34,190 nt of DNA from an uncultured Holophagaceae bacterium (GTDB lineage: Bacteria > Acidobacteriota > Holophagae > Holophagales > Holophagaceae). Below are positions 4,334 to 32,909 of the stretch, in pieces. Numbering within the stretch: the stretch's first letter is position 1; each line of letters opens with the position of its first letter. Below the pieces are notes generated by a model that did no database searches, had not been told where the DNA came from, and saw only the letters and a list, made by a program, of their open reading frames with translations. Position numbers and translations under genes: made by a program. The stretch is taken from positions 1-34,190 of the forward strand of contig CAITBU010000238.1 in the NCBI GenBank assembly GCA_903890595.1, given 5' to 3'.

Positions 4334-4407
4334 GGGATCTCCGGTGTTACGACACCCATCCTAGTCTCGACAGGACCAGAATGCCAGGGGAAGCAAAAGC
4401 AACCACT

Positions 4408-4486
4408 CTCGCAGAGGACGCGGAGAGAGCAGAGAGTCGCAGAGGACCTCTGTGCTCTCCGCGCCTTCCTCCGCAGCCTCTGCGAG
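4408..4486. repeat. Intergenic imperfect palindrome made of 9-nt-periodic GCRGAGRNN repeats (STRR-like)
   Basis: CTCGCAGAGG (4408-4417) ... CCTCTGCGAG (4477-4486) perfect 10-bp terminal inverted repeat; interior gcagaggac/gcggagaga/gcagagagt periodicity; centre CAGAGG-A-CCTCTG. Confidence 0.75.
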
Positions 4487-4498
4487 GGTAGTTAATCC

Positions 4499-4954
4499 CT
4501 ACCGCCCCGTGCTGCCGTAGCCGCCGCTGCCGCGACCGGTGTCGCCCAGGGCTTCCACGCTGGGCTCGGGGGTCCAGGTCCAGTGAGCCGCCGGGGCCAC
4601 CAGCAGCTGGGCGATGCGCTCGCCGCGGCGCAGGTCGAAGGGGGCGTCGCCGTGGTTGATGAGCAGGACCTGCACCTCGCCCCGATAGTCGGCATCGATG
4701 GTGCCCGGCGCATTCAGCACCGTCAGGCCATGCTTCAGCGCCAGCCCCGAGCGGGGCCGCACCTGACCCTCGTAGCCCGGCGGGATGGCCATGACCAGCC
4801 CCGTGGGCACCAGGCGCCGCTGGCCCGGCACCAGGGTCCAGGTCTCGCCCTCGGGCGTGGCCGCCCGCAGGTCCATCCCCGCCGAGTGGGCCGTGGCGGC
4901 CGAGGGCAGGTCAAGGCCAAGGCCGTGGGGAAGCTGATGAACCGGGATGCGCAT
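4499..4954 (-). CDS. dut: dUTP diphosphatase
   Basis: '[10 protein letters not shown]', '[37 protein letters not shown]', '[11 protein letters not shown]', C-terminal '[11 protein letters not shown]' dUTPase motifs. Start ambiguous between 4954 ([11 protein letters not shown]) and 4969. Confidence 0.93.
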
Positions 4955-5005
4955 CCAAAAAGCATCCACGCAAAGGTGCAGGGGGGTCTATGGAAAAGAC
5001 AGGTT

Positions 5006-5116
5006 GAACGCAGAGGACACCCGAGGGGCAGAGGAGCGCAGCGCCAGCAGTATCCCCTTCCTCCCCTTCATCCCTGTTTTCACGAAAAAGCATCGGGGAC
5101 AGGGATGAAGGGGATA
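5006..5116. repeat. Composite intergenic repeat: 9-mer GCAGAGGAC-type arm plus CCCCTTCATCCCTGT palindrome
   Basis: GAACGCAGAGGACACCCGAGGGGCAGAGGAGCG (9-nt periodic) followed by CCCCTTCATCCCTGT (5063-5077) and its exact inverse ACAGGGATGAAGGGG (5099-5113), loop containing AAAAAGCAT (5085-5093). Confidence 0.8.
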
Positions 5117-5176
5117 ATGGCAGAGACTTCCTTGCCAGCCTGAACACCGATTACGTGCCGGATTGAACCCGGGCTG

Positions 5177-30448: not shown

Positions 30449-30482
30449 GGGCCTAGCTTAGCGGAATTCGCAGCGGTTCCGC

Positions 30483-31484
30483 TCAGAGGGACATTCGTTC
30501 CAGGATCTGCTGATGCAGGTGGTCCAGGAGGGCATACCGCCGGGCATAGAGCGCCCGCTTATTGGGCTTGACGGCCTCCGGAGCCCGGCGCGGCGTCACG
30601 AGAGGGACCCTGAACCAGCCGCCCTCCACTGGGACCCCACCGAGCTCGGTCCAGAGGGCATCGAAGTCAAACCGGATGTCCCGGACAGGCACCAGGAAGC
30701 TACCCCTGCGGGCCCGGTAGACCTGAATGCCATTGCCCACCCCGTCGATTCGAGCAATCCCCAGTGCCCGGGCGAGTTCCTGCACCACCAGGAGCAGGAG
30801 GTTCTTGGGACGGAGGCCGCAGAGAGCCTTGGTGGCCAGCTTGATGGTGGCCTCGTCCCCACCCCGGCGGCCCTGGAGGCCACCGATCCGGAGGGTCCAG
30901 CCCACCTCCCGCTCCAGGGAGAAGGCCAGGCCGGAAATGGCCCCCTTCACCCCTTCCAGCTCAAGGAAGATCGAGATCTCCCCCTCCTTGCGGAACTGGG
31001 CATCGCTCCCCAGGCGAATCAGGGCCGTCTGCCCCCGATCCAGCTCCAAGCGCGCCAGGAGCAGCCCCCCGGACTGCTGCATGGCCTCCAGGAGGAACCC
31101 AGACCGCTCGACCAGAAACCGGTAGGTGTCCTTGATGACCTTGGTCCGGCGCTCCAGACCCCAGCCCACGGACATGTAGCGCGTCAGGGCCCTGAAGATG
31201 AGCCTGGGATTGGTCTGAACGAAGCCCTCCATGGCCGGCGCATCGTGAAAGGAGAACCAGGCCAGGGCGGCCTCGGGATGGACGGCAGCGGCGGTAGCCC
31301 AGCGCAGGTGCCGCTTGTAGAGGCGCATGCTCCCAACGTGGGGCTGGTAGACAAGGACGCTCCAGTCCCAGGCCGTGCGTGCCGCTTCCCAATAGACCCG
31401 AACCACGGGTTTCCCCCGATCGACAAAGGTTATTGTACCCAACAGGTATACCTCTGGGCCCTGGCAAGGCAGGGCGGGACTCAA
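30483..31484 (-). CDS. VirK/YbjX (DUF535)-like protein
   Basis: 'SGLAFSLEREVGWTLRIGGLQGRRGGDEATIKLATKALCGLRPKNLLLLVVQELARALGIARIDGVGNGIQVYR' and C-terminal 'KPNKRALYARRYALLDHLHQQI' match the DUF535 pattern as I know it. Start uncertain. Confidence 0.75.
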   Translation of the reverse strand: MSPALPCQGPEVYLLGTITFVDRGKPVVRVYWEAARTAWDWSVLVYQPHVGSMRLYKRHLRWATAAAVHPEAALAWFSFHDAPAMEGFVQTNPRLIFRALTRYMSVGWGLERRTKVIKDTYRFLVERSGFLLEAMQQSGGLLLARLELDRGQTALIRLGSDAQFRKEGEISIFLELEGVKGAISGLAFSLEREVGWTLRIGGLQGRRGGDEATIKLATKALCGLRPKNLLLLVVQELARALGIARIDGVGNGIQVYRARRGSFLVPVRDIRFDFDALWTELGGVPVEGGWFRVPLVTPRRAPEAVKPNKRALYARRYALLDHLHQQILERMSL

Positions 31485-31556
31485 CGGCCCTGCGCTAACA
31501 TGGGTCCAACCTCTAGACCGTCACCCCTTCCCGCCACCCCCCAGGCAGGGGTTCCC

Positions 31557-32207
31557 ATGCACTTCACCTCCGAGACCGGCTTGCACCTGAGATCCCTATT
31601 GATGTCCATGGGCGCCGCCCTCCTGTTGGGGTGCGGCGGTGGGGTCAAGGGCGACACCAACAACATCGAGATCCGCGCCCTGAACATGGCCCTGGCCAAC
31701 AAGGCGAGGGACCTCAACCTGATCTATCTGGACACCTACGCCATCCTGCTCACCAACGCCGGCAAGCCCCTGGTGTTCTTCTACGAGCACGATGGAGAGC
31801 ACCTCTCGGAGCTGGGTTACCTGCGGTGGGCGGACGCCATCCTCGTCCCCTACATCAAGTTCAACAAGGTCACCTGCGCAGGCATGGTGGGGGACTCGAT
31901 CACCCGCCGGGTGAGTGTGGTCCAGATGCAGAACCCCACCCGGGACGCCACCTGGGATGACCTGTTGGGCATCAAGACCTACAACATGGGTGTCGACGGG
32001 GAGACCTCCGGGGATGTCCTCAAGCGGCTGGACCAGCTGATCCAGCCAGACATTGACCGCTACTTCCTGATGATCGGGAACAATGACCTCCACGCCGCCA
32101 TCCCCATTCCCCAGGTCATCGCGAACGTCGAGACCATCGTCCGCTACCTGAAAGATCACAGCGGGAAGCCAGTGGTGATCCAGGCCGTGATGCCCTTGAA
32201 CCGCTAG
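31557..32207 (+). CDS. SGNH/GDSL-type hydrolase-like lipoprotein with permuted block order
   Basis: Lipobox 'LLLGCGGG'; 'FFYEHDGEHLSELGYLRWADAIL' (block V, D79/H82), then 'VGDSITRR' (block I, S114), 'YNMGVDGETSGDVLKRL' (block II), 'LMIGNNDL' (block III, N176), ends 'PVVIQAVMPLNR'. ORF track overextends upstream to 30513. Confidence 0.8.
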   Translation: MHFTSETGLHLRSLLMSMGAALLLGCGGGVKGDTNNIEIRALNMALANKARDLNLIYLDTYAILLTNAGKPLVFFYEHDGEHLSELGYLRWADAILVPYIKFNKVTCAGMVGDSITRRVSVVQMQNPTRDATWDDLLGIKTYNMGVDGETSGDVLKRLDQLIQPDIDRYFLMIGNNDLHAAIPIPQVIANVETIVRYLKDHSGKPVVIQAVMPLNR

Positions 32208-32228
32208 CCCGCTTCCGAAAGCAGCCCC

Positions 32229-32837
32229 ATGCCCCATCCGTTCCACAGGATCCTCGCCTCCTGCCTCGTCGGCGGCGGGATGCTCTCGGCTGCCGAGCCC
32301 ATGACCCCGGGCCTGCACCTGTCCATCGCCGATGCGCAGGGCGACTTCCGAAACGAGATGGGCTCGAAGCATGCCCCAGGTCTAGGCCTTTCCCTGGGGA
32401 TACCCCTGACCCGGACCCTGGCCGTGCGCCCCATGGTCTCCTTTCAGTCCTTCCCCACGCTCGACTACCAGTACGCCTACAAATCCAGCCGCTACTCTGA
32501 CCTGGGCGCCGAGTCTGCCCGCTGGAGCGCCTGGACCATGGGTGCCGACTGCCTCTACCGGCCCGGTGGCCCAACGGGCAGGCTCTACTTCCTGGCCGGA
32601 GCCCACATGAAGGTCTGGCGGCTACACAGCTTTGGGACCTACACCACCAGCGACCGCGTGAACCCCACCCGCACCTACACGGTGAACGACGCCAGCACCA
32701 AGGATGAACCCGCCCTTGCGGCAGGCCTGGGCTGGACCTTCCTCCGTCATGTAAGTGTGGAGAGCCGCTACGTCTTTGGCAGCTACCGGGGGCTTACCTA
32801 CAACACGCTGGAAGCCTCCCTGGTGCTGACCTACTAA
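32229..32837 (+). CDS. Putative outer-membrane beta-barrel protein
   Basis: Signal peptide; alternating-hydrophobicity barrel-like strands ('LGLSLGIPLTRTLAVRPMVSFQSF', 'GRLYFLAGAHMKVW', 'AAGLGWTFLRHVSVESRYVFG') and terminal aromatic 'LEASLVLTY'. Confidence 0.7.
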   Translation: MPHPFHRILASCLVGGGMLSAAEPMTPGLHLSIADAQGDFRNEMGSKHAPGLGLSLGIPLTRTLAVRPMVSFQSFPTLDYQYAYKSSRYSDLGAESARWSAWTMGADCLYRPGGPTGRLYFLAGAHMKVWRLHSFGTYTTSDRVNPTRTYTVNDASTKDEPALAAGLGWTFLRHVSVESRYVFGSYRGLTYNTLEASLVLTY

Positions 32838-32909
32838 GAGCCCCTTGAGGGCGAACTATGTATCCTGGGACACCAACCCATCCTTCCATCCCCTGCCTTC
32901 AGGTGCCCC

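Follow-up and report, generated by a model that had tools for sequence, protein, structure and literature searches.

A probable circularly permuted yet complete SGNH hydrolase lipoprotein in a genus of Holophagaceae

Can an SGNH/GDSL hydrolase whose catalytic blocks stand in the wrong order along the chain be a complete enzyme, or is it the remains of one? The question is raised by a gene at 31557–32207 (+ strand) in a 34,190-nucleotide stretch of DNA from an uncultured Holophagaceae bacterium (the window; it is contig C238 of a genome of 3.19 Mb in 526 contigs). An earlier note, made from the letters alone, had described its product as a permuted but complete domain. The motifs and their order were confirmed as first described. 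All the superfamily blocks are present, namely I (GDS), II (G), III (GxND) and V (DxxH), but the protein does not follow the canonical S-G-N-H order. Its chain runs H-S-G-N, with block V (D71/H74) followed by S106, G137 and N168. Hence, it is a permuted derivative of the SGNH/GDSL superfamily and not a canonical member. The features of the locus are as follows.

30468–32850, no strand assigned: module of three genes, which sister species lack in its entirety (empty site at locus L105 of genome G027).
30483–31484, − strand: DUF535 (VirK/YbjX-like) gene (PF04393, 192 bits), transcribed away from the hydrolase gene.
31581–32207, + strand: permuted SGNH/GDSL hydrolase lipoprotein, 208 aa, its TTG start favoured by homologue starts.
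31581–31634, + strand: putative lipoprotein signal peptide with lipobox LLGC; codon of the putatively lipidated, invariant Cys18 at 31632–31634.
31635–31868, + strand: former C-terminal half, residues 19–96 (alpha helix, beta-5, block V loop, C-terminal helix).
31791–31802, + strand: block V, D71-G-E-H74, the presumed catalytic Asp and His, invariant in all ten homologues.
31869–32204, + strand: former N-terminal half, residues 97–208 (beta-1 to beta-4, ending in MPLNR; PF13472 positions 2–111).
31890–31898, + strand: block I, G104-D105-S106, with the presumed nucleophile Ser106; invariant.
31989–31991, + strand: block II, Gly137 of the presumed oxyanion hole; invariant, in the alignment column that holds the block II Gly in canonical relatives.
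32076–32087, + strand: block III, G166-N-N168-D, with Asn168 of the presumed oxyanion hole; invariant.
32229–32837, + strand: outer-membrane beta-barrel protein (PF13505), 202 aa, 21 nt downstream of the hydrolase gene.

The start of the gene had been placed at ATG 31557, which would give a protein of 216 aa. Since the homologues start at a codon aligned with TTG 31581, preceded by a GGAGG site in two of them, this TTG was taken as the probable true start. Residues are numbered from it; numbering from the ATG is higher by 8, so that D79, H82, S114 and N176 of the earlier note were correct and correspond to D71, H74, S106 and N168 here. Cys18 follows a short hydrophobic signal and was invariant in all the homologues aligned. 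The residue at position −1 of the lipobox (identified by eye) is G or S in nine of the ten homologues, and Asn in that of G031.

The protein scored 61.6 bits against PF13472 (curated cut-off 32.9), and all ten homologues matched this family. As it is the sole PF13472 match in its own genome (G000), with one catalytic set, no canonical copy substitutes for it. The claim that each catalytic element occurs only once thus held good: the genome has this single match, and the next gene begins at 32229. A long open frame upstream of 31557 was considered and set aside; it lies antisense to the DUF535 gene and has no SGNH match.

It had been predicted that a profile search would return two non-collinear matches in swapped order. 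This was what hmmscan gave for PF13472, and the same swap was seen against PDB 6njc, the sialate 9-O-acetylesterase PvSAE of Phocaeicola (Bacteroides) vulgatus. When the halves were tested alone, residues 18–96 matched PF13472 positions 122–176, and residues 97–208 matched positions 2–111. In phmmer, query 127–215 aligned with chain positions 35–125 of 6njc, and query 26–100 with positions 127–201. The two stretches match opposite ends of the 6njc chain, and are therefore complementary and swapped in order.

When the mature sequence was rotated so as to begin at residue 97, it gave one PF13472 match covering positions 2–176 of 178 (72.1 bits). The rotated sequence also gave one continuous alignment to 6njc, with 68.1 bits (E 9e-18) as compared with 49.5 bits in total (E 4.5e-12) for the unrotated one. 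Every rotation of the mature sequence was also scored with a profile built from canonical Acidobacteriota relatives only. Native order gave 52–58 bits (best single domain) across all ten homologues, and in each of them the score peaked, at 83–101 bits, when the chain was opened immediately ahead of the old beta-1. The six canonical proteins used as controls, which also belong to the profile, peaked unrotated. Judged by these alignments, the motif arrangement is a circular permutation and not a product of chance.

The permuted gene was found full-length and without stops in 10 of 47 genomes (species) of one Holophagaceae genus, the homologues being 70–81% identical to the window protein; the permuted order is thus conserved. 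D71, H74, G104-D105-S106, G137, G166, N168, D169 and Cys18 are invariant in all ten, and every homologue stops within a few residues of one common point (MPLNR and variants). Pairwise dN/dS was 0.08–0.40 (Nei-Gojobori; first 18 columns excluded), showing that the gene is under purifying selection. In the named collections every carrier is a Holophagaceae MAG (Acidobacteriota), and the isolate names suggest lake and sediment samples.

These data bear on whether a tandem duplicate might have left the gene behind as a remnant or hybrid without function, or whether the assembly put its parts in the wrong order. The contigs do come from MAGs and the gene is restricted to one lineage, but the same architecture and ends recur in ten species, in separate assemblies and with differing flanks, and dN/dS is well below 1. 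Conservation on this scale, with no stops and with invariant catalytic residues, rules out both an assembly artefact and a decaying fragment, the two possibilities named earlier as refuting the permutation. We therefore hold this explanation to be extremely improbable. A frameshifted tandem pair was likewise considered and rejected.

Outside the genus, 396 genomes of the phylum yielded only partial matches to the block I–III half, consistent with canonical proteins. Among viral contigs, phages and plasmids there was no full-length permuted relative, and a viral scan for the canonical group also found nothing. When rotated and canonical sequences were placed in one tree, the ten proteins grouped as a single clade (support 1.0) with a long stem, next to canonical proteins of about 33% identity. 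A single permutation event is the simplest reading.

We modelled the fold with AF2. From the ten permuted homologues alone no usable model was obtained (pLDDT 49). The successful alignment additionally contained, as separate rows, stretches taken from canonical relatives (46 of the N part and 46 of the C part); MAFFT misplaced the half-sequences in several layouts, and the layout used aligned the catalytic columns correctly. The resulting model had a pLDDT of 89.6 and a pTM of 0.83 and was poor only at residues 1–22, with the caveat that split rows may bias AF2 towards the canonical docking of the halves. It has helices and strands as in SGNH proteins, and residues 48–50, the former beta-5, were assigned as a strand. 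As its own half has no other strand of at least three residues, this strand presumably pairs with the sheet of the other half.

Foldseek, which aligns in chain order, placed one half of the model, the former N-terminal one, on 6njc/7pzg (110 columns, 1.6–1.7 Å, TM about 0.44). The 50 best matches included no full-length collinear one, either for the PDB or for the viral libraries. A match to one half only is what a permuted SGNH fold is expected to give in a sequential aligner. The description as a permuted but complete domain is therefore upheld by the homologues, the rotation test and the confidently predicted fold, and the triad presumably converges in one site. Permutation and domain swapping are related phenomena, and canonical PvSAE is a dimer; the protein might accordingly fold only as a domain-swapped dimer, with halves pairing across two chains. 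The monomer model has high confidence in both halves, and although a monomer prediction is compatible with swapping, we regard this arrangement as unlikely.

The earlier note knew of no description of such a permutation, and at the level of the superfamily this was wrong. The H-S-G-N order has been published for AlgX and AlgJ (PMC4148444), WssI (PMC10302187) and PatB1 (PMC9487903), and is also discussed by the authors of the OatA study (PMC5697884), so that the original claim of novelty was too strong. No other permuted SGNH/GDSL case of the present kind was found in the open-access literature, a search that took in few subscription papers.

Could the window protein then be a divergent member of one of these lineages, with no new permutation event? 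AlgX, AlgJ and WssI, which serve alginate and cellulose O-acetylation, share with it a permuted H-S-G-x order (PMC4148444, PMC9487903, PMC10302187), and so does the DHHW family with PatB1 (PMC9487903). The former, however, are larger acyltransferases with a cap and long antiparallel strands. They have GTSYS in block I, Tyr or Asp in block III and DxH in block V, where the permuted protein has GDS, GxND and DxxH, and its His and Ser lie 32 residues apart as against about 96 in AlgJ. The DHHW proteins, from Bacilli and Clostridia, have extra domains and KDS, DxRY and TDHHW motifs, which are absent from the permuted protein. The ALGX and DHHW Pfam models matched none of the ten members at E up to 10, whereas PF13472 matched every one. 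AlgX and PatB1 structures were also missing from the 50 best Foldseek matches, and the tree puts the permuted clade beside canonical proteins. Descent from the known lineages is thus very unlikely. Since the hydrolase blocks are intact, the domain is minimal and neither ALGX nor DHHW matches, the permutation is probably independent of them.

The nearest proteins in the phylum are canonical PF13472 proteins of other Acidobacteriota (L060, L122, L124 and others), about 33% identical over the domain but different in having the canonical order. After rotation, the best match was PvSAE (6njc/7pzg; 68 bits, gap-poor), which shares the triad and the GxND and DxxH blocks and superposes over 110 columns at 1.6 Å. 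PvSAE differs in its canonical S-G-N-H order, in having GNS rather than GDS in block I, and in an N-terminal helix that forms a dimer cleft and is without counterpart in the permuted protein. Its catalytic set is Ser52, His202, Asp199, Gly75 and Asn103 (PMC9063846), and it is by comparison with this enzyme that a serine esterase role may be assigned to the permuted protein. PvSAE is the nearest solved relative only, and 9-O-acetylated sialic acid is not assigned as the substrate.

We propose that the gene product is probably a secreted lipoprotein and a naturally circularly permuted yet complete SGNH hydrolase. The opening of its chain would lie in the loop that follows beta-4 (after MPLN), and some three to five residues would link the old C-terminal helix to beta-1. 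If the fold, the Ser106-His74-Asp71 triad and the Gly137/Asn168 oxyanion hole are retained, as is presumed, the protein should hydrolyse esters of small acyl groups (e.g., acetyl) through the usual serine-esterase mechanism. It would probably be tethered in the periplasm or at the outer membrane through lipidated Cys18, and probably works with the beta-barrel protein encoded next door.

An O-acyltransferase that moves acyl groups onto an envelope glycan has to be weighed here. The permuted SGNH enzymes characterised in the cited papers are all O-acyltransferases, which makes hydrolysis uncertain, and the gene adjoins envelope genes. Against this, the hydrolase-type Asn of block III and the DxxH are kept, the nearest solved relative is a 9-O-acetylesterase, and the partly annotated flanks showed no recognisable MBOAT-type acyl donor gene. 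We give acyl transfer a small but appreciable chance.

Catalytic loops of the SGNH fold lie at the C-terminal ends of the strands. With an opening after beta-4, the two new chain ends come to lie at the C-terminal strand ends, beside these loops. The lipid anchor would then hold the active-site side to the membrane through about nine residues. In a canonical lipoprotein of the family the tether would precede beta-1, on the opposite side, at the bottom of the sheet.

The beta-barrel gene is probably cotranscribed with the hydrolase gene. Its orthologue, 58–74% identical, adjoins the hydrolase gene in all ten carriers, and elsewhere in the genus the barrel had no match above about 33% identity. 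The DUF535 gene adjoins in nine carriers; in the tenth, the contig ends there. The outer flanks of the trio in the window are an rfaE-type kinase and an acyl-CoA synthetase, and other genes take their place in G371/G030, G003, G004, G016, G031 and G017. The two species nearest by the kinase (about 99%), G027 and G035, are both without the trio. In G027 (L105) the site is empty: flanks 91–92% identical are joined by seven different bases (CCAGGAG). In G035 (L104, about 4372–5151), another reverse-strand ORF, which reads like an outer-membrane beta-barrel protein, replaces the trio. The three genes behave as one unit in gain or loss, and the site looks variable; no transposase or obvious repeat was seen by eye at the ends of 30468–32850. 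In Shigella, the DUF535 relatives VirK and YbjX reportedly help to maintain outer-membrane integrity (PMC12562796), and an envelope role would agree with this.

It may be noted that a 64% identical DUF535 gene occurs without the hydrolase and barrel genes in G012 (L092, 131–1084), where a kinase-like gene adjoins instead. DUF535 genes elsewhere in the genus, about 50% identical, were considered as the ancestral locus and rejected; in G002, the one examined, the context differs.

As to the origin of the permutation, tandem duplication with subsequent loss of the outer halves had been suggested as a possible route, and the homologue search found neither an SGNH–SGNH intermediate close to the permuted group nor a close canonical ancestor. 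In another Acidobacteriota family, ORFs of 503 and 526 aa (L084 of G149 and L069 of G390) have two tandem SGNH domains. These may serve as a model for the intermediate that permutation needs.

Put together, a classical full-motif SGNH hydrolase may have been permuted independently, the opening after beta-4 shifting the lipid anchor to the active-site side so that the enzyme would face the membrane or its barrel partner. Such an adaptation of orientation, spread in a movable three-gene envelope module, is a tentative scenario that we rate as possible rather than probable.

Few natural circular permutations of common enzyme folds are well documented. The known permuted SGNH proteins are few, larger and divergent acyltransferases with altered motifs, and this divergence makes the permutation event hard to reconstruct. 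New here is a minimal permuted domain that has all the hydrolase motifs, aligns over its full length with canonical relatives and occurs in ten related species, and hence offers a tractable system for studying permutation. It may be added that annotation pipelines which assume collinearity may label such a gene as a fragment. How a permutation arises, how it affects activity and folding, and whether relocation of the anchor was itself the benefit are questions that become accessible with this family.
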